55,553 bases of DNA from a virus, in IMG/VR virus record IMGVR_UViG_3300009184_000006, positions 1-55,553 of that record; one strand, written 5' to 3'. The notes below the pieces were generated by a model. That model had not been told where the DNA came from, made no database searches, and worked only from the letters and a program-made list of their open reading frames with translations. The translations under genes and the position numbers were made by a program. Positions 1 through 38,608 of this stretch are shown piece by piece; within the stretch, counting starts at the first letter, position 1; each line of letters opens with the position of its first letter.

Positions 1-123
1 GCGAATCGTAATGCGCTCAGTCTGCCTCGCTGGCAGTCGATACGGGTCTTTTTGGTCCGCGCAACCTTCGTTGCAAACCTGGAGACCGGGAAAATTAGGG
101 TCGGAGCGCATCACCGAATGCGC
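1..123. repeat. Terminal direct repeat, left copy
   Basis: The first 123 bases are identical to the last 123 (55431-55553). A reading frame runs through the repeat and is completed only when the ends are joined, so the sequence closes into a circle of 55,430 bases. A repeat of this length is typical of the overlap left by an assembler on a circular or circularly permuted molecule. A genuine short terminal redundancy cannot be excluded from sequence alone. Confidence 0.95.
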
Positions 124-22471: not shown

Positions 22472-22501
22472 ATTATACCACACGTCCTATACCTCTGTCA
22501 A
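22472..22501 (-). promoter_or_regulatory. Early promoter cassette P7
   Basis: TTGACA (22496-22501), 18-base spacer, TATAAT (22472-22477), with a diverged leader that retains ATAGAGG. The -35 overlaps the TGA stop of the NrdR-like ribbon gene. It drives the deacetylase-like gene and those after it. Confidence 0.88.
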
Positions 22502-22692
22502 TCCTCGCTATCCCGCACCCGACGCTCCCGCTCGTCCAGCTCCGGGCGTTCCCCGGTCTCGGGCTTCTCCCGGGTAGTGAACCGAAATCCGCATTTCTCG
22601 ACCAAGCACTCGCGTCGACGCTTTGTAGTCAGGTCCACGTTTTGGTAGGTAGTCGTCACCCGTGTGTCGCTACCGCATTGCAAGCATTTCAT
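22498..22692 (-). CDS. Stand-alone NrdR-like zinc ribbon
   Basis: The protein has 64 residues: MKCLQCGSD at the start, RRRECLVEKCGFRFTTRE in the middle, and a charged tail. This matches the N-terminal zinc ribbon of NrdR, the repressor of ribonucleotide reductase genes, but the ATP-cone domain is absent (host NrdR has about 150 residues). One Cys pair is spaced CLVEKC rather than CxxC. It overlaps the HD phosphohydrolase gene (ATGA) at the end of the Z-nucleotide operon, so a link to dNTP control is attractive but unproven. Confidence 0.7.
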   Translation of the reverse strand: MKCLQCGSDTRVTTTYQNVDLTTKRRRECLVEKCGFRFTTREKPETGERPELDERERRVRDSED

Positions 22693-23252
22693 AACCATCC
22701 TCCATGTATTCCTATATCTTGGCATACTCGACGTACGCCCTCGCGCACCCCAAGCTTGGGGTACTCCCGTTCCATGCTGGTGACCATACCAGCAAGGATT
22801 TGCCGCAGCTCGTCGAGCACCTGCTTGGCATGTGCCCCTATACCGTTGTCCTGCAAGAAGTAGATCGCCTCGATCTGGTCCGCCAGCTTCACCAGCATTT
22901 CGATCTCGCTCCCTTTCACCTGCCGGTACGCCCCCATGTGCTCCCGGTCCACCAGATCTTCGGCCTTCTCCAGCACGCCAGCACCCCCGGCCTCTTCGAG
23001 GAAGCGCTTGAACGGTGTCGGCACGTCCCCGGTGCGCACTTCGATCAGGTCGTGGGAAAGGGACCATTGCAGCAGCTTTAGCTGTAGTGTGTGGTGCAGC
23101 AGTCCCGTCCAGCGCATCGCAGTGGCGAGCGATCCGGCGATCACCGCAACCGCGAATGAATGCTCCGCTAGCGTCTGCTCCCGGGCCACCTGCACTATAT
23201 GCCACCGGCGTACATGGCACGCCCTCAATTGTTCAGCCGTCGTTAAACTCAT
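22689..23252 (-). CDS. datZ: HD phosphohydrolase, DatZ-like dATP triphosphohydrolase
   Basis: The protein has 187 residues. Motifs are RRWHIV, EQTLAEHS (His31), SHDLIEVRTGDVPTP (His67-Asp68, Glu71, Asp76) and KLADQIEA (Asp125), the metal site of the YfbR/DatZ group. DatZ of Z-genome phages removes dATP (to deoxyadenosine and triphosphate) so that only Z enters the DNA. Sequence alone cannot separate it from YfbR-type 5'-nucleotidases; the operon with PurZ, a MazG-like protein and a family-A polymerase makes DatZ the better call. Confidence 0.75.
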   Translation of the reverse strand: MSLTTAEQLRACHVRRWHIVQVAREQTLAEHSFAVAVIAGSLATAMRWTGLLHHTLQLKLLQWSLSHDLIEVRTGDVPTPFKRFLEEAGGAGVLEKAEDLVDREHMGAYRQVKGSEIEMLVKLADQIEAIYFLQDNGIGAHAKQVLDELRQILAGMVTSMEREYPKLGVREGVRRVCQDIGIHGGWL

Positions 23253-23419
23253 GTGTTTTTCTCCTTAAGTGATTGCATTGCCGCTTTCAAATGTTCATCT
23301 TGTTGTTTCTTCGCCTCTATCATGTCGGCAAGCAATTGATCTATTTCTGCGATTGAATACATACCCGCAGGCACATAAACCCGCATCGTGTTATATGTTT
23401 TGTGTGTGTATTCCGTCAT
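23249..23419 (-). CDS. Small charged protein upstream of datZ
   Basis: A 56-codon gene: MTEYTHKTYNTMRVYVPAGM, then a helix, IAEIDQLLADMIEAKKQQDE, and a Lys-rich end. Start and stop overlap both neighbours as ATGA, which is the main evidence that it is translated. Function unknown. Confidence 0.65.
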   Translation of the reverse strand: MTEYTHKTYNTMRVYVPAGMYSIAEIDQLLADMIEAKKQQDEHLKAAMQSLKEKNT

Positions 23420-23607
23420 TGAATTCTCCCACGCAAAGCTTCGACCATTGACCTTTGTATATCCATTAATTCATCCCGTTGACGGTAAACCTGCTCGTAC
23501 ATGGCATGCAAGGTCGCTATGTCTCCGCGCAAATTCGCAACAGTAAACAAAAGCGAATCCCTCGCGGATTTAAGCTGCGCGAATTCGATTTCTTCTTCTT
23601 GTGTCAT
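23416..23607 (-). CDS. Small helical protein in the Z operon
   Basis: The protein has 63 residues: MTQEEEIEFAQLKSARDSLL, then a long amphipathic helix (VANLRGDIATLHAMYEQVYR, QRDELMDIQRSMVEAL), probably a coiled coil. The ATG at 23607 overlaps the previous stop (ATGA). Not recognised. Confidence 0.6.
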   Translation of the reverse strand: MTQEEEIEFAQLKSARDSLLFTVANLRGDIATLHAMYEQVYRQRDELMDIQRSMVEALRGRIQ

Positions 23608-23843
23608 CGCTCTTTCATCCTTGCTCTGATGGCATCGCCCCATGTGCCGCCATCTTCTTTAAGTATGTGGTCTACCATCTTTGCGTTCGCCTCACGCTCT
23701 GTTGATCGCTCCTCGGCCAGTAACTTTTTTATTCTGTCACCATACATTGACACCACAATGCTTGGAAGGCCGATCTCTCTGGCACGGTCGTACAGCTTAA
23801 TGTCATCCGGCGTTAGAGTGACAGTTATTTCAGGGTGAATCAT
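23604..23843 (-). CDS. Small protein in the Z operon
   Basis: The protein has 79 residues, beginning MIHPEITVTLTPDDIKLYDR, a strand followed by helices, and ending GDAIRARMKER. The short strand-helix-helix order resembles ribbon-helix-helix-like small proteins, but this is weak. GGGGACAAGC precedes the ATG. Its last 19 bases (TCATCGCTCTTTCATCCTT on the plus strand) are repeated exactly at the end of the next gene upstream. Confidence 0.6.
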   Translation of the reverse strand: MIHPEITVTLTPDDIKLYDRAREIGLPSIVVSMYGDRIKKLLAEERSTEREANAKMVDHILKEDGGTWGDAIRARMKER

Positions 23844-23871
23844 GCTTGTCCCCTTGCTCCGACGGCTTTGC

Positions 23872-24072
23872 TCATCGCTCTTTCATCCTTCGCAACTTAT
23901 CGGCGATCTGCTCGCCGTCCAATGCGTCGAACTCTTCGATTTCTAGCTTCTTAGCGGCCCGTTCCAGCACGCCGTTCCAGATCTTCTTCACAGCTTGCCG
24001 GTTGTCCTCGTCTTGCGAACCAAGCACGTTGCCGAAGGTCTGCTCGTACCATTCATCGAATGCTTTAGACAT
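23872..24072 (-). CDS. Small helical protein in the Z operon
   Basis: The protein has 66 residues (MSKAFDEWYEQTFGNVLGSQ, then helices) ending LRRMKER. Not recognised. Its start overlaps the end of the MazG-like gene by 8 bases. Directly after it lies an 11-codon reading frame (MSKAVGARGQA) that overlaps both its stop and the next start and may only serve translational coupling. Confidence 0.6.
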   Translation of the reverse strand: MSKAFDEWYEQTFGNVLGSQDEDNRQAVKKIWNGVLERAAKKLEIEEFDALDGEQIADKLRRMKER

Positions 24073-24559
24073 GGCGCATGATCCCAGTGTTTTCGTCCAC
24101 CCGCCACTGACGCGATTCGTTGATATCCATCTTCATCTCGATGGCCCGGTGTACATCTATACCGTTCTTGTACGCCACGTCAAGCAGCAGGATCATGATG
24201 TCGCCCATTTCTAGCGCCGATTGTGGGTCACGACAGTACTCACCAATTTCCTCGTAGAGCTTGAGTAGAATATCCTTCGTCGTGCGCTCAGGAAAGTTAG
24301 CGTCAGCCCATTGCGTGATCCGATCTTGTAACTGACGTATATCGGCCCCGCCCCGCTTCTTGTAAGCGTTGATTGAACGAACTGCGAGATCTGCGTTTTT
24401 GTCGCAGTTGCCGAGCACGCCCCGTAGATGGTGACGGACCTCGAAAGACGCGACGGCAGCGCCTTTCGCATCGACGACGATGGCGGGGTTTTGTGGGTCG
24501 ATCCCCCACGGGAGTTCATTGGTTTCATCCGTGTGTATCTCTGATTCAACTTGCAGCAT
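24065..24559 (-). CDS. mazZ: MazG-like (d)NTP pyrophosphohydrolase, MazZ-like
   Basis: The protein has 164 residues. The C-terminal half has the all-alpha NTP-pyrophosphatase signature: KLYEEIGEYCRDPQS with Glu103, Glu104 and Glu107, then LEMGDIMILLLD with Glu117 and Asp120, which together bind magnesium. The N-terminal 70 residues form an extra small domain. In Z-genome phages MazZ turns (d)GTP into (d)GMP, the substrate of PurZ. The gene overlaps the purZ 3' end by 14 bases, which supports that role. Confidence 0.8.
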   Translation of the reverse strand: MLQVESEIHTDETNELPWGIDPQNPAIVVDAKGAAVASFEVRHHLRGVLGNCDKNADLAVRSINAYKKRGGADIRQLQDRITQWADANFPERTTKDILLKLYEEIGEYCRDPQSALEMGDIMILLLDVAYKNGIDVHRAIEMKMDINESRQWRVDENTGIMRHV

Positions 24560-25655
24560 GGCGTTGGGCCTTCCAAATGTTAATGATCTGGTTCATCCGT
24601 AGTGCTCGCGCCCCACGATCGATAACGTGCACGTCGTTGTAGGTCGGCCCGGTGCCGATCCAGCGCACAATGGCTTGGTCGCTCTCGATCGCTTGCACTA
24701 TCGAGACCAGCTCTCGCTCTTCGCGCACATAATTGACGAAATTGAGGAACACTTCGCGTGCACCATTGTACTCGATCGATTCTTGGATCTGCTTCCCACT
24801 GAATGTGAAAATCCGGCGTGGCAGCTTGGTCACGGTGGTAAGCTCCGTCTTTTGCCCTATATCCTCGAAGCTGATCTCCACTTGGTCGTCGTAGCACGGC
24901 CCGGAGTACCCCACTTGCATTCCCTCGGTGTCGTATCGGTTCGCCACCCGGATCGGGTAGGTACGGCAAGTGCCAATCACCTGCAGCCGGGTGTTCTGGT
25001 ACTTGTCCACCAGCATATCGTACGAGATCCCGGCATCGGCGAGGATTTGCCACGTGCTCACGTCCCTCGACGTGGTGTAGGGGTAGAACCCGTGGTACAT
25101 CGAGAGTCCGTATCCTTGCGCCCCCTCGATCAGCACGTGCCGAGCTTCGCGCAGCGCGGCCCGGTAGCCCATCGTGGTGGTCACGTACCGCGCAAGCTCC
25201 GAGCAGTTGGCCGCGATGTTTAGATCGTCCGGGTTGCGCCGAATGCGCTGAATCATCGCAGCACCAACGCCCTTTTTGGTGGAACCGATCTTGGTCATCG
25301 GTCCGGCTTCCTCGTCCACGTGCCGCTGGGTGACGATCGCGGCGTGGGGGTGGATTAGTATTTCGATGAACTGCGTGAGCGCCTTGCTCGCCTCGATCTC
25401 TTCCAGCAGTTGATGCGGGTTGATGAGCGACCCGGGTCCAAGCAGCACGCGCTTGAGGTAGGGGGAGACGATGCCGTTGGCCAAATGCGTGTGGATGTAT
25501 TTGCGCCCTTGACTGCTGATGTAGGTGTGCCCCGCGTTGGGTGCCCACGCCGTGATCACCGTGTCGGGTGATTCCTCCTCCGCTAAGTACCCCACGATCA
25601 GCCCCTTGCCGGTGCTACCGTACTGCAGATCCACTACCATCTTGATTGTTTCCAT
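24546..25655 (-). CDS. purZ: PurZ, 2-aminodeoxyadenylosuccinate synthetase
   Basis: The protein has 369 residues and is an adenylosuccinate-synthetase homologue. The phosphate loop reads VVDLQYGSTGKG: Ser14-Thr15 stand where host PurA has the catalytic Asp-Glu (GDEGKG). This substitution is the recognised mark of PurZ, which joins aspartate to dGMP. The catalytic His is kept (PNAGHTYIS, His43). Other PurA-like blocks are GSTKKGVGAAM and LIEGAQGYGLS. The product is split by host PurB to dZMP and then phosphorylated. Start at 25655 (METIKM), 5 bases after AAGGA, just after the polymerase stop. Confidence 0.92.
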   Translation of the reverse strand: METIKMVVDLQYGSTGKGLIVGYLAEEESPDTVITAWAPNAGHTYISSQGRKYIHTHLANGIVSPYLKRVLLGPGSLINPHQLLEEIEASKALTQFIEILIHPHAAIVTQRHVDEEAGPMTKIGSTKKGVGAAMIQRIRRNPDDLNIAANCSELARYVTTTMGYRAALREARHVLIEGAQGYGLSMYHGFYPYTTSRDVSTWQILADAGISYDMLVDKYQNTRLQVIGTCRTYPIRVANRYDTEGMQVGYSGPCYDDQVEISFEDIGQKTELTTVTKLPRRIFTFSGKQIQESIEYNGAREVFLNFVNYVREERELVSIVQAIESDQAIVRWIGTGPTYNDVHVIDRGARALRMNQIINIWKAQRHAAS

Positions 25656-25657
25656 GT

Positions 25658-27493
25658 TTATCCTTTTGCTGCGTACCAGTCTTTGCCCAAACCCCAATCG
25701 CAGCGAATCGGGACTCGGAGTTTAATCGGACACTCGACGCCGTCGAATGTAGTATAGAGTCGGGCGATCTCCTCGGCTTCGTGCTTCGAATCGTTATCTA
25801 GTGATATCCCTACCTCGTCGTGCACGGTCAGCAGCAGCCGACCACATTGGCGCTCGCGCAGATGGCGGTGCAGCTCGATGAGTTTTAGCTTCATGCAGTC
25901 CGCACTGGTGGCTTGGTAAATAAGCCCCGACGCCTTGTGCACGAACTGACCACCGGGGAAGCGGATGTGCCGCCCCATCACTGAATGCACGAATCCACGC
26001 TCTTTCGCAATGCCGCTGGCCTTCATCGAGGTGTTGCGCATTCCGGGGTTCGCAGCGTGGTACTTCTCGAACAACGCCATCGCCTCGGGTCCAGCCTTGA
26101 GGTAGACGTTGCCATTCGGCCCCTCCTCCTCGGTGTAAGGCAGTCCACATTCCTGCGCCAGCCGTCCGGACCCCATGTTAAACGCAAGTCCGAGGTTAAT
26201 CGCTTTGGAGCTTGGGCCACCCGCATACTGCGCATTTCGCGGAATCCCGGTCATGTCACTCACCAGTTGGTGGAAATCCAAGTCCGGATTCTCCTCGTAG
26301 GCCTTGAGAATCGCGGGAACCTGACCGTAATGATTAGCCACTCGGAATTCAAATTGTGACCAATCCAGACCCAGCCACTCAGCCCCCAAATCGGCTTGGA
26401 AAATCGGACGAACCAATGACTTAATGGCGACGTCTCGACTTGGAATCTGCTGCAGAGCGGGATTAGTAATCGATAGCCGTCCAGTCCCTGTACCAGCCTC
26501 GGCATCATTTTTGGTCTGGTTATAATTGCAATGAATGATTCCATCGTGCTGGTGTCCCAGTATGTGGCCCTTGAGGAAGGTATCGCGGGTCTTGAGTGCC
26601 TTTCGCAGGTCGAGGATCATCGCCGCCGCTGGGTGCTTCATACGACGCAGACAGTCAGCGTCGATCGACGCCTTACCGCCGTCGGTCTTTCCGGCCTTGG
26701 TCCCGTCGATCAGATACCACTCATTGTCCTCGCGTAGCGTGGGCTTGAATAGATCCGCGATCGATCCGGAGGGGTTCGGGTTGACCTCGAAACCGGCGAG
26801 GCTATTAAGACCCCGCTGCATCTCGTCGATGCGCTTCGTGAGGCCATGGACGGCCCTCTCGGCCTGTTCCACATCCACCGCCACACCCTGCTCCTCCATG
26901 TCGATGATCACCGGCATTAGATCGCGTTCCAGCCGCAGCACTTGGTGCAAGTCTTGCCGCTCGATTTCTCCTTGCTGCCAGTTGTACAGCGCCAGCGTGA
27001 CCACCGCGTCTTGGATCGCGTACTTGGACACCACGTGCTCCGGTGCTCGGGAAATGTTAGGCATCTGCATGTTGCGGGTAGGGCGACCGCCGAACAGCTT
27101 CGCCAGCTCCTCGTACATCTCCTCGTCCTTTTTCATGCCGACATACTTGCGAGCCAAGAAATCCAGCGCGTAGGTCGGTTCGTGCTCGTTAATGAGCGCT
27201 GCCCGGATCATCGTGCAGTCGATCTGGTCCGTAGGTACTGCCACCCCGGCTTCGCGCAGGAAGTGCACGTCGAACTTCATGTTGTGCCCCACCCACGTAC
27301 CCACCCGCTTTTCGCGGATCAGGTCGTTGAGCCACCCGATCACCCCGGGAGATGTGCGGATGTCCCAGTACCCGGAGAACTCGGGGAGTGCGATGGAAAT
27401 GCCGAATGCTCGGTCCTCCCACCACTTCAACCCCGTAGTCTCGGTATCTATGACCAACACCGGGGCGTGGTCGATTCGTGGAAATGCGATCAT
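25658..27493 (-). CDS. dpoZ: Family-A DNA polymerase with 3'-5' exonuclease, DpoZ-like
   Basis: The protein has 611 residues. Exonuclease motifs are VIDTETTGL (Asp16, Glu18), GHNMKFD (Asp75) and YAIQD (Asp162). Polymerase motifs are A, LDWSQFEFRV (Asp377); B/O-helix, SSKAINLGLAFNMG (Lys430, Leu434, Phe438); and C, LTVHDEV (His558, Asp559, Glu560). There is no 5'-3' exonuclease domain. The O-helix position of E. coli Phe762 is Leu. It directly precedes purZ, as the Z-selective DpoZ genes do. Base selectivity cannot be read from sequence. Confidence 0.88.
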   Translation of the reverse strand: MIAFPRIDHAPVLVIDTETTGLKWWEDRAFGISIALPEFSGYWDIRTSPGVIGWLNDLIREKRVGTWVGHNMKFDVHFLREAGVAVPTDQIDCTMIRAALINEHEPTYALDFLARKYVGMKKDEEMYEELAKLFGGRPTRNMQMPNISRAPEHVVSKYAIQDAVVTLALYNWQQGEIERQDLHQVLRLERDLMPVIIDMEEQGVAVDVEQAERAVHGLTKRIDEMQRGLNSLAGFEVNPNPSGSIADLFKPTLREDNEWYLIDGTKAGKTDGGKASIDADCLRRMKHPAAAMILDLRKALKTRDTFLKGHILGHQHDGIIHCNYNQTKNDAEAGTGTGRLSITNPALQQIPSRDVAIKSLVRPIFQADLGAEWLGLDWSQFEFRVANHYGQVPAILKAYEENPDLDFHQLVSDMTGIPRNAQYAGGPSSKAINLGLAFNMGSGRLAQECGLPYTEEEGPNGNVYLKAGPEAMALFEKYHAANPGMRNTSMKASGIAKERGFVHSVMGRHIRFPGGQFVHKASGLIYQATSADCMKLKLIELHRHLRERQCGRLLLTVHDEVGISLDNDSKHEAEEIARLYTTFDGVECPIKLRVPIRCDWGLGKDWYAAKG

Positions 27494-27759
27494 CAGAACG
27501 GGATGTCGTCGAAGTCGTCGCGGAACCCGGTGGGTGCTGGTCGAACCGTGCCCCCGGCGCTCTGCTCTTTGCGGTTGATCTTGATGGAGAAGTACTTCTT
27601 GCCCTCCATCTTGCCCCCCGCTTTGCCCTCGTTCACCCACGCCGATACCCAATAGTCCACGCCCTCCACGTTGAGTGAGCCAGTGAACTCGGGGTGATTC
27701 TCGGTCTTGCGATTCTCGTTCCGGGCAATCATGCCGGAATTGGTGTTGTCGTATGCCAT
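27493..27759 (-). CDS. Small SSB-like protein
   Basis: The protein has 88 residues. Strands such as HPEFTGSLNVEGVDYWVSAW and KKYFSIKINRK suggest an OB-like beta barrel. The tail is disordered and ends DDFDDIPF, nearly the same as the conserved SSB C-terminal tip that recruits replication enzymes. Being first in the operon, with its stop overlapping the polymerase start, supports a single-strand DNA-binding role. An alternative is a DUF736-like protein. Confidence 0.65.
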   Translation of the reverse strand: MAYDNTNSGMIARNENRKTENHPEFTGSLNVEGVDYWVSAWVNEGKAGGKMEGKKYFSIKINRKEQSAGGTVRPAPTGFRDDFDDIPF

Positions 27760-27798: not shown

Positions 27799-27827
27799 AT
27801 TATATCACCGCTGGAATGATCCGTCAA
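27799..27827 (-). promoter_or_regulatory. Early promoter cassette P8 (Z operon)
   Basis: TTGACG (27822-27827), 17-base spacer, TATAAT (27799-27804), leader CCAACTGATAGAGGAC. It drives the SSB-like gene, polymerase, purZ, mazZ and probably through to the NrdR-like ribbon. Confidence 0.88.
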
Positions 27828-34958: not shown

Positions 34959-36998
34959 CTACTGAGGCGTTCCGAGGCCGGGAGAAGGCTGCGGGGGCGG
35001 TGGAACGGGCATCTCCAAGTGCTGGGGAGTCAGCGTGTCCTCGGGGTACTGCTCCGGAGTGCCTCGCTTACCGGCCAAGCCGCCCAGATTAGCCGCTCCA
35101 ACATTAGCGGCGGTGGAAGCTTGCATCAACATCTGCTCTTGTGCCTTCAAGCTCTGCATGATACTATCCATCACTGGGTTAACCCCAGTGGCGGGGGTCA
35201 GGAGCTTTTGCTGAACGGGTGTGGATACGCGGGGTCCCATACCTGTCAGGCGAGGCACGGCGGCTTGGGTAGCCTCGATCGCAGCGCCGAGCGGGTTGCC
35301 CTGCACCAGCCGGGTAGCAGCGCCCACACCGGAAGCGCCCGAATCGAGGTCCACGTCCTGCGCGGTCTTGCGAAACCCAGTCTTTTCGGTAGTGAGCATT
35401 CGCTGCTCTTCGGTCAACCGGCGCTTGAATTGATCGAAAGCGTCATCATCGCGGAAAGCACGACGGATTTTTTGCTCCATGTCGCGTCCCAGCACCGTCT
35501 TCATAGGATCGGCGGTAGGTCCGGCAACCCGAAGCTTCTCCAGCATGCTTTGGGCTATACCGGCACGGAAGGCGTCGAACTCGGACGGATTGTCCTTGAA
35601 TCGATCGATCAGCTTGCGCATATCCATCTCGGGCAGCTGGTAAATCTTGCGACCCTCTTCCATCGCGGTGAGCATCTCCGAATCCCCGGCGTAGGCGAGG
35701 CGTGCGGTCTTGTACTCCGGCGCAGCTTTCTCCATGTCTTTGAGCAGCCGCTCTTTCATGCTCATCAGCGTGCTGGCTTGGCCACCTTTACCCTGACGAA
35801 TGGATTCCGAGATCATGTCGTCCAGCGCGATTTTTGTCTCGTGCAATCCACGGAGAGTGTTCTTCGGATCGGTGATATCGAGTCCGGCGTCGGCCATCCG
35901 TTTCGCACCCGCTTTCATCGCATCTTTGAATGACGGAAGGTTACGAAGCCGCTCGATGTCCGGCGCGGTCTTGGAGCTAAATCGCGCGTTCGAATCCCAA
36001 GCTGCTTGGTACAACGAATCGGCGTCTGCTGAGCGCTTCTTGATCAGGTCTTGTACATCGGTGTAAAAATCCTTGGACCCCGACATTAGTGTGCGCATAT
36101 CCTCACTCACCCGTGGGATTCGCTCCAACTCGCGGGTAGCCAGCGTATCTTTTGCTTCTCGGCGTGCAGCTCCGGGCGCAGCGGTCGCTTTACGCAGCAA
36201 TGCAGCGGTGTTCTCGCCAAGATCCGCTAGAGTGATCTCGCCCCTTGCTGCCGCTTGCATCTTCATCAACGCTTGTTCCGGCGTTAACCCATCTTTTTGC
36301 AGCGCTTTCGCGATAACCACGTCGGCCATCTTGTTAGCGTCGCCGAACCCCATCGCGGATTTGAGTTTGCCGAACGCTGGCATCACCACGTATTTCCCCA
36401 GAGCACCTGTGGCCCCGGTGAGTGCAGCACCGGAAGCTGCCCCTTTAAACGCTTCCGCAGGAAGCTCCGTCAGCGGCTTTTCGCTTGTACCCACGGCACT
36501 GGTAGCGCCGGATGCTGCACCATAGCCCATCATCCGAGCCACGGAAGGGGCTTTGCCAGCCAAGAATCCAGCGACCTTCGGACCCACTGATCGGGCGACT
36601 GCCGGGATCGCTCCAGCACCACCAGTGAGCAGCGCGGGGGCCACGCCACCCAGCAATTCCCCGGCGGTGGACGCTATGGGACTGTCCTCCGAATATTTGC
36701 GTTGCCCTTCGCGTTCCGCTTTCACGTAGTCTTCGTACGAGTGCTTCCCACCCATTGCACGCATTCGGGCAATAGCCTCATCCGAGAACCCCATGGTTAA
36801 GCCCTGCAAAGCAGCACCGCCGAACCCATCGAGGAGCGCGGAAGGGCGGGGTCCAGCCGGAGCTGGTCTGGGTGAACCGGGTGCGGAAGTGGGTGCGCTG
36901 CCACCAGTTTTACCTATTTCGAACTTGCGAATCTGCGCCTCATTCATTGAATCCGGGAATTCGTAGATAACGCCATTGATGATTCGTTCTTTAGTCAT
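34959..36998 (-). CDS. Internal virion / DNA-ejection protein candidate
   Basis: The protein has 679 residues. It opens MTKERIINGVIYEFPDSMNE. A Gly/Ala-rich hydrophobic stretch at about 55-190 (GGAALQGLTMGFSDEAIARM, AGAIPAVARSVGPKVAGFL) could insert in a membrane; long charged helices fill 200-540, and a Pro-rich tail ends GLGTPQ. This layout is typical of podovirus ejection proteins that leave the capsid with DNA. Last gene of the late module; ATG overlaps the previous stop (TAATG). Confidence 0.6.
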   Translation of the reverse strand: MTKERIINGVIYEFPDSMNEAQIRKFEIGKTGGSAPTSAPGSPRPAPAGPRPSALLDGFGGAALQGLTMGFSDEAIARMRAMGGKHSYEDYVKAEREGQRKYSEDSPIASTAGELLGGVAPALLTGGAGAIPAVARSVGPKVAGFLAGKAPSVARMMGYGAASGATSAVGTSEKPLTELPAEAFKGAASGAALTGATGALGKYVVMPAFGKLKSAMGFGDANKMADVVIAKALQKDGLTPEQALMKMQAAARGEITLADLGENTAALLRKATAAPGAARREAKDTLATRELERIPRVSEDMRTLMSGSKDFYTDVQDLIKKRSADADSLYQAAWDSNARFSSKTAPDIERLRNLPSFKDAMKAGAKRMADAGLDITDPKNTLRGLHETKIALDDMISESIRQGKGGQASTLMSMKERLLKDMEKAAPEYKTARLAYAGDSEMLTAMEEGRKIYQLPEMDMRKLIDRFKDNPSEFDAFRAGIAQSMLEKLRVAGPTADPMKTVLGRDMEQKIRRAFRDDDAFDQFKRRLTEEQRMLTTEKTGFRKTAQDVDLDSGASGVGAATRLVQGNPLGAAIEATQAAVPRLTGMGPRVSTPVQQKLLTPATGVNPVMDSIMQSLKAQEQMLMQASTAANVGAANLGGLAGKRGTPEQYPEDTLTPQHLEMPVPPPPQPSPGLGTPQ

Positions 36999-38608
36999 TA
37001 TGGTCTTTCCTGCCCGTCTGCACCAACCCGCACTCGGGGCATAGTGAAGTACTGCTGATAGGTGGCTCGGTTGGGATTCAGAATAACCCTGCCTTTATCG
37101 TCTCGCGATGTGATCGGGTTCGCGTCCAAATATTTGCGCCACTGCGCTTGCGCTTCTGGGCCGATGTGGCCATTAACAGCCGCATAATTGCTGATGTACG
37201 AGTTGTAGTCGCGATCGCGCTCACGTTGGGCGAGCTGGTACTGGATGATAGTCTTGTTGGTGATTGGCTCTTTGTCGCTGCTGAACGTTCCCAGTTGCAT
37301 CATCTTAACATCAAGGTTCGATACGTTGGAGTCGCCCGGGATGCGGTTTTGCTTCGCAGCCAGCGCGGAGAGTGAGTCGAATTCATTGATCTTGGCGCGA
37401 TCACCAGAGAGCACCTTGGCCACTCCGCCGACACCGGGAAGACCATAGGTCACCCCAGTGCTGATCTCGGTGTTGAGTGACAGCGCGCGCTTCAAATTGG
37501 AGATGTCGTCCTCCAGCCCACCCACGTAAGGCGAGACTTTGTCGCGGATGTAGTGATCTGCATCCTCCGCATCTTTCTTGCGTTTTGCTGCCGCTTCGAT
37601 TTTGTTCAAACCGGCGTAGCGGTTGGTGGTCGCCAGTGGAATACCCACCTCGGTAGCCCTTGCGGCGATGGCTTGCGAATCCTGATTGCGCACGTGCTCG
37701 TCGATTTCTTGCCGGAGCCGTTTGGTCTGCGTGCGGCTCTGCTCGATGGTAGTCTCTTTCCCCTCCTGCTCCAACCGGATGTTCTTCGACACGATCGATT
37801 GCGCCCGTGCCAGATCTTTGGGATTGAGTGGGTTGCCACCGAATGAATCCAACGCTTTGGCGACTTCGGGCGACTCTTTTTTGAACACTTCGGCTTGCAA
37901 CGCTTGCTGTGCTTTCTGGAGATCGATCGGGTTCGTCAAGTCTAGATTCAAGCGCACCGCGATGTCGTTCAGCGGCTTATTCTTTTCGAACGCCTCGAAT
38001 TTTGCAGCAAACGCGGGGTCGGTGAGCGACATTCCAGAGCGAGCCGCGAACGTCTTCATCTCGGGTGTGGCTTTATCCACGGCCATCAGATCTTTAATCC
38101 GGGAGATACCCTCGGGGCTGCGCGGGTCAATGCCTTCGGACTGCACCTGCTTTTGGTACGCGGTTAGCTGCGGGGTGAGCTTCGACACCACCGAGAGACC
38201 CAGCTTGGCTGCAGCTTCTTCGTCCGACAACCCAGCACGCGCCAGCTCGTAGCGCATCTTGGCGACATCCCGAAGCCGCGATTCCTCGTCTTGCTGAGCT
38301 TTGGAGTACGCTCCGGTGGCTGCGCCCAGTGACTCACCGAAAGAACCGGTGCGCGTGGGAGCCAAAAAGCCCTGAGCGAGTGCCATCATCGAGGGGTCAG
38401 GTCCACCACGACGGTCAGTCAGTGCCTTCACCATCGCTTCGCGAGCGGCGTCGACTTCGGTCTTCGCCTTTTGGTACTCTTCTGAATCGGACCCTAGTGC
38501 TTGACGACCAAGAGCCGAAAGCGACACACTGGCGACTTTGTCCGGGTCCATCCGGAGCATCTTGGCAAGCAGTGGACTGTAGGTATCTGCAGCAGTATCT
38601 TCGGCCAT
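36998..38608 (-). CDS. Internal virion protein candidate, helical
   Basis: The protein has 536 residues, mostly charged helices and coiled coil (EYQKAKTEVDAAREAMVKAL, EQSRTQTKRLRQEIDEHVRN), with an Ala/Gly segment LPGVGGVAKVLSG near 385. No enzyme motif. One of four consecutive large late genes that resemble the inner-core or ejection set of podoviruses. Its stop overlaps the next start. Confidence 0.55.
   Translation of the reverse strand: MAEDTAADTYSPLLAKMLRMDPDKVASVSLSALGRQALGSDSEEYQKAKTEVDAAREAMVKALTDRRGGPDPSMMALAQGFLAPTRTGSFGESLGAATGAYSKAQQDEESRLRDVAKMRYELARAGLSDEEAAAKLGLSVVSKLTPQLTAYQKQVQSEGIDPRSPEGISRIKDLMAVDKATPEMKTFAARSGMSLTDPAFAAKFEAFEKNKPLNDIAVRLNLDLTNPIDLQKAQQALQAEVFKKESPEVAKALDSFGGNPLNPKDLARAQSIVSKNIRLEQEGKETTIEQSRTQTKRLRQEIDEHVRNQDSQAIAARATEVGIPLATTNRYAGLNKIEAAAKRKKDAEDADHYIRDKVSPYVGGLEDDISNLKRALSLNTEISTGVTYGLPGVGGVAKVLSGDRAKINEFDSLSALAAKQNRIPGDSNVSNLDVKMMQLGTFSSDKEPITNKTIIQYQLAQRERDRDYNSYISNYAAVNGHIGPEAQAQWRKYLDANPITSRDDKGRVILNPNRATYQQYFTMPRVRVGADGQERP

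Follow-up and report, generated by a model that had tools for sequence, protein, structure and literature searches.

A Predicted Z-Genome Operon in an Uncultured Phage

The virus record IMGVR_UViG_3300009184_000006 of IMG/VR, a stretch of 55,553 nucleotides (nt) called the window below, carries an operon on its minus strand (27759-22498) which we assign with a probability of about 0.93 to the phiVC8/SH-Ab-type Z-genome modules. It would belong to a tailed phage of an uncultured lineage with virion DNA containing 2-aminoadenine (Z) instead of most or all adenine (A). The full known phage gene set is present, so the virus very probably represents a new member, still uncultured, of the Z-DNA phages already known, and replacement of A by Z is strongly predicted. 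Combining the listing of open reading frames (ORFs) with direct reading of the sequence, the genes were found in the transcription order SSB, DpoZ, PurZ, MazZ, four small ORFs, DatZ, and a zinc ribbon. An earlier note on this DNA had described the same series, with a MazG-like and an HD protein in the places of MazZ and DatZ; both the positions and the enzyme assignments were borne out, as curated models, best solved relatives and published functional residues agreed. When all solved structures were searched, the best relatives of the four enzymes were the four characterized Z-pathway enzymes. PHROGs names PurZ, DatZ and the SSB, Pfam the DUF550-type pyrophosphohydrolase. These family matches, like those to the curated models, lie well beyond chance.

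PurZ (25655-24546, minus strand), a succino-2-amino-deoxyadenylate synthase (2-amino-deoxyadenylosuccinate synthetase) of the Pfam superfamily PF00709, reached 350.6 bits against the curated NCBIfam PurZ model (cutoff 300). Its best solved relatives were 7odx (S-2L PurZ) and 6fko, and it was found 45-49% identical to PurZ of cultured phages. The motif GSTGKG of the earlier note was confirmed within QYGSTGKG, where Ser replaces the catalytic Asp of PurA. Using ligand-pocket positions from PMC8342488, a protein alignment showed identity to S-2L PurZ at 28 of 30 sites, with the dGMP pocket retained. The two differences were C204 to Thr and Q308 to Asn, the latter also present in phiVC8. As E. coli PurA and the PurZ0 phages carry Asp at the site of this Asn, an adenine nucleotide (ATP or dATP) is predicted as donor. 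A maximum-likelihood tree of 61 proteins grouped PurZ with S-2L, phiVC8 and SH-Ab 15497 within the phage PurZ clade (support 97/96); the clustering with PurA which the earlier note had named as a refutation was thus not observed. PurZ0 formed a separate clade (100/100), and E. coli PurA was distant, on a long branch.

The polymerase DpoZ (27493-25658, minus strand) is a family-A DNA polymerase with 3'-5' exonuclease and falls into the phiVC8-like subfamily, with 798 bits against NCBIfam phage_DpoZ_1 (cutoff 500) compared to just 29 bits, below cutoff, against phage_DpoZ_2. Its best match in the PDB was 7pbk, phiVC8 DpoZ (1.7e-136). Aligned with the positions published in PMC8599892, all eight residues were found retained, namely D26, E28 and D85, R161 and M165 of helix E2, and L455, F459 and G548; the last five form the phiVC8-like signature. 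The phiVC8 enzyme prefers dZTP, the triphosphate of Z (PMC8599892). Directly upstream, 27759-27493 (minus strand) encodes an SSB-like single-strand DNA binding protein of 88 amino acids (aa; PHROG 7364, 4.4e-13).

DatZ (23252-22689, minus strand), an HD-domain dATP triphosphohydrolase, matched the PHROG of that function (7076, 4e-28) and had S-2L DatZ (6zpa) as best PDB match. It was identical to S-2L at all 13 published positions aligned (R19, W20, I22, Q29, A32, H34, H66, D67, G74, P79, K81, K116, D119; PMC8065100). MazZ (24559-24065, minus strand), a DUF550-type (deoxy)nucleoside triphosphate pyrophosphohydrolase, matched the dATP/dGTP pyrophosphohydrolase family PF04447 (6.5e-9), and S-2L MazZ (7ody, 8e-13) was its sole PDB match. 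It carries about 70 additional N-terminal residues. The metal ligands and dGTP-site residues E35, E38, E50, D53, D60, K76, N80, W85, M93, R94 and H95 were retained in the alignment (positions from PMC8342488), with departures from S-2L at I16 (Ala), N20 (Phe) and A92 (Ile). The equivalent of N20 is Phe in phage PMBT28 and Tyr in SH-Ab 15497.

Proposed Pathway and Degree of Replacement

We infer the following pathway. MazZ would cut dGTP, and perhaps also dATP, providing dGMP. PurZ would use dGMP and aspartate, with ATP or dATP, to form the succino precursor of dZMP, which host adenylosuccinate lyase and kinases would convert to dZTP. DatZ would strip dATP, and DpoZ, helped by the phage SSB, would copy with dZTP in place of dATP, so that most or all A of the virion DNA would be replaced by Z. 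In published work, PurZ, MazZ and DatZ of S-2L together brought Z into the DNA of E. coli (PMC8342488). The pathway had been called complete in the earlier note, which holds for the phage gene set. The record yielded neither an adenylosuccinate lyase nor a guanylate kinase, so the remaining steps of Z synthesis must come from the host. Such host supply is established for other Z phages.

We are aware of several points which weigh against this interpretation. The presence of Z is predicted from genes and not from chemistry, and no single polymerase residue explains Z selectivity (PMC8599892), so the residue matches of DpoZ are supportive and not proof. In S-2L MazZ, N20 contacts the guanine O6 (PMC8342488); the window enzyme lacks this Asn and, with Phe at the contact, may not be exclusive for dGTP. 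The related enzyme of SH-Ab is reported to cleave both dGTP and dATP (cited in PMC12884076). MazZ of the window may likewise cleave both, and the source of dGMP may thus be less specific.

A mixture of A and Z in the virion DNA, caused by limiting flux through PurZ or MazZ or by incomplete removal of dATP in the host, would fit the altered base-reading residue of MazZ, and the degree of replacement is not readable from sequence. Nevertheless, none of the published residues tested is altered in the two A-excluding proteins, DatZ and the phiVC8-type DpoZ, and full substitution is described for Z phages that have the same set (PMC8599892, PMC12884076), which makes a partial replacement very unlikely. 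The earlier argument for complete replacement, the joint presence of MazZ and DatZ, was loose, since MazZ just supplies dGMP; DatZ and DpoZ are the proteins excluding A. Complete replacement would be expected to protect the genome from host nucleases, including restriction enzymes. Although PurZ shares its superfamily with PurA, it is hardly conceivable that it is a PurA-like enzyme of the AMP pathway or a GTP-using PurZ0 within an operon of ordinary nucleotide metabolism, given the Ser at the catalytic site, the retained pocket, the Asn at the nucleotide site, the position in the tree, and neighbors (PurZ-type DatZ, DUF550, DpoZ) other than the dUTPase set of PurZ0 phages, with no dUTPase found in the record.

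Comparison With Cultured Phages and the Uncultured Lineage

The replication block was found collinear with those of Acinetobacter phage SH-Ab 15497 and Salmonella phage PMBT28, except for the position of the SSB. Both show nearly the same order of SF2 helicase, hypothetical genes, PcrA-like helicase, DpoZ with SSB, PurZ, DUF550, and DatZ, with identities of 46-49% for PurZ and 48-49% for DpoZ. In the window, in contrast, the SSB gene precedes DpoZ, additional small genes lie between MazZ and DatZ, and MazZ comprises 164 aa versus 385 aa in SH-Ab 15497 and 290 aa in PMBT28. Cyanophage S-2L has the order PurZ-MazZ-DatZ and the active-site residues in common with the window, but PrimPol in place of DpoZ (PMC8065100) and Asn at MazZ position 20. 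Vibrio phage phiVC8 shares PurZ, DatZ and DpoZ, and both its type of DpoZ signature and its PurZ Asn recur in the window, whereas the gene lying between purZ and datZ in phiVC8 is of the MazZ-2 type (PMC8342488) and showed no match to the window MazZ. The PurZ0 phages (Wayne-like Arthrobacter phages, Gordonia phage Ghobes) carry a PurA-family enzyme with the catalytic-site Ser found here as well. They differ by the Asp at the nucleotide site, dUTPase-type enzymes and another DpoZ subfamily.

Scanning IMG/VR with PurZ yielded 67 related loci, mostly on contig fragments. Most have the order PcrA-like helicase, SSB, DpoZ, PurZ, MazZ, a 66-aa ORF, DatZ, ribbon, an HDAC-like gene, and a 384-aa protein, which recurs in dozens of contigs, the longest reaching about 59 kb; these contigs form an uncultured lineage. 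No relatives at the DNA level were found among 50,697 annotated phage records. The terminase was nearest to those of a spring-water siphovirus and Caulobacter phages (41-46%), too weak to name a host. With this, a sizeable lineage would join the known Z-DNA phages. As hardly any of the published enzyme determinants is lacking in it, the sequence rules for Z-genomes extend beyond the cultured set. The Z-type polymerase, at about 48% identity to those characterized, and the MazZ with its altered base-reading residue could also aid work on Z-DNA enzymes.

Many bacteria and some archaea (L116, L118, L122-L187) were also observed to encode PurA-like proteins whose P-loop contains GS (read as GSEGKG where inspected), most of the sampled ones falling outside the PurZ clade. 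PurZ-like genes were further found on four contigs binned with bacterial genomes (L109, L110, L113, L114). The first three resemble phage DNA and carry genes similar to DpoZ and DatZ as well; on L114, a contig of 994 kb, PurZ was the sole match among the genes searched.

The Zinc Ribbon and the HDAC-Like Neighbor

Two further genes adjoin the enzymes throughout most of the lineage. The last gene of the operon (22692-22498, minus strand) encodes a zinc ribbon of 64 aa, which passed the Pfam model PF22811 (Zn_ribbon_NrdR) with 30.8 bits (cutoff 27.2). As the nucleotide-sensing ATP-cone is absent, the protein is of the NrdR ribbon type and not NrdR itself. Its core CxxC...RRRxC...C..RFTTxE is retained throughout the lineage. 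The conserved C-terminal LSHxWYN coincides in many relatives with the translated promoter of the next gene, for HDAC, which overlaps the end of the ribbon ORF (for example in L017 and L019), so this conservation probably reflects a constraint on DNA and not on protein. Perhaps the ribbon binds DNA and regulates genes of the phage or the host, which is a guess.

The next gene (22438-21602, minus strand) encodes an HDAC-fold deacylase of the class IV / cluster 5-like type (PF00850, 1.4e-32). Its catalytic set (the pair H106 H107, D142, D144 and H146 of DxDxH, the second Asp D208, and Y251) was identical in all 53 distinct relatives aligned. It has its own promoter, a perfect sigma-70 site with TG before the -10 (22501-22472, minus strand, 12/12 consensus positions). 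The pattern TTG[AT]C-16..20-TAnnnT was found upstream in 36 of 36 relatives, compared to 4% of random 130-base stretches from the same contigs. A conserved 384-aa protein (21618-20464, minus strand), whose gene overlaps that of the deacylase by 17 nt, follows it across the lineage. No family was found for it, and its model, with a predicted local distance difference test score (pLDDT) of 80, had no structural match. Searches for defense-system annotation returned none for the small proteins, the ribbon, the HDAC-like protein and the 384-aa protein.

Ribbon and HDAC form a conserved neighborhood of the Z operon in this lineage. Neither gene was found in the cultured Z phages examined, and no report of such an association, or of any relevant link of HDAC or NrdR with Z phages, was found in the open-access literature. 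The ribbon motif was detected in none of the cultured Z phages, distant Z loci or non-Z HDAC loci scanned. The HDAC gene was not found in the regions of SH-Ab 15497, PMBT28, S-2L and phiVC8, had no annotated counterpart in the further PurZ and PurZ0 regions of cultured phages that were read, and did not occur in the distant Z records searched over their full length. Using tblastn with HDAC against all phage records, matches were confined to Rhodococcus phage E3 and four uncultured phages of huge size. HDAC as a general marker of Z phages was rejected, as it is missing from the cultured and distant Z phages searched.

Within the lineage, 30 distinct close HDAC relatives had 6.5 kb or more of upstream sequence, and PurZ was present in every one of them. 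These sequences are related by descent, so the counts measure conservation and not repeated independent association. All close HDAC relatives lie within one lineage and may go back to a single acquisition, one relative (L061) has the operon with PurZ and ribbon and lacks HDAC, and more distant HDAC-fold genes (33-40%) stand in six viral records in which PurZ had no match while positive controls did. Together with the separate promoter of HDAC, this makes it rather probable that ribbon and HDAC are lineage cargo, held together by common descent alone and functionally unrelated to Z-DNA. Against this stands the persistence of adjacency and of the full catalytic set while PurZ diverges to about 57% identity. 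A more specific role, in which the sensor-less ribbon would keep host ribonucleotide reductase genes on during destruction of dATP and HDAC would adapt host replication or transcription proteins to Z-DNA, appears unlikely. If true, the two genes would add to Z-genome replication a layer of regulation and protein modification for which no report was found. Either way, they offer two testable candidate partners of Z replication.

The substrate of the HDAC-like protein was considered separately. Active acetylpolyamine amidohydrolases of the same superfamily are encoded by giant viruses (PMC9992855), and release of spermidine instead of protein deacylation would be conceivable here. However, the best sequence match was HdaH of Vibrio cholerae (94.8 bits) compared to 31.6 bits for 3q9b, an acetylpolyamine enzyme of bacteria, and a fold search with the predicted structure (pLDDT 87) ranked HdaH and Leptospira HDAC11 first. 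HdaH is a cluster 5b lysine deacylase, and the polyamine activity of bacterial enzymes was confined to cluster 4 in the work of PMC11532494. With sequence and fold both closest to cluster 5b, the polyamine enzyme is not favored and seems unlikely. HdaH (9gkv, 9gky) resembles the window protein in fold and catalytic residues, at an identity of about 26%. The gene product is thus a predicted lysine deacylase; its targets may perhaps be host proteins, again a guess.

Operon Layout, Promoters, and Other Features

Neighboring genes of the operon mostly overlap, by 1 to 14 nt, the ATG of DpoZ (27493) overlapping the SSB stop. The earlier statement of overlaps at all gene ends was found correct except for gaps of 2 nt between DpoZ and PurZ and of 28 nt ahead of the 79-aa ORF. 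The four small ORFs follow MazZ on the minus strand. The protein of 66 aa (24072-23872) is kept at this place across most of the lineage. Those of 79 aa (23843-23604), 63 aa (23607-23416) and 56 aa (23419-23249) are variable; all three have counterparts in the close relative L075, the second also in L007. Elsewhere, a 536-aa protein (36998-38608, minus strand), surrounded by likely structural genes, showed a weak match below cutoff to a type III secretion needle family, probably by chance.

The operon had been assigned one promoter, and a single promoter-like site was indeed located upstream of it, ahead of SSB (27827-27799, minus strand). It is sigma-70-like, TTGACG-17-TATAAT with TG before the -10. 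By count, such sites were near chance in the region (5 found versus 4.3 expected); a similar, loosely defined site precedes SSB in 33 of 38 relatives. It is part of a family of near-perfect sigma-70 promoters on the minus strand, starting at 27827, 22501, 20218, 19340, 17455, 16604, 16275 and 15479, of the form TTGACA-17/18-TATAAT with TG before the -10 in most. A common leader resembling CAACCAACCGATAGAGGAC was observed after most of them. If the genome is Z-DNA, the A positions of these promoters would carry Z.

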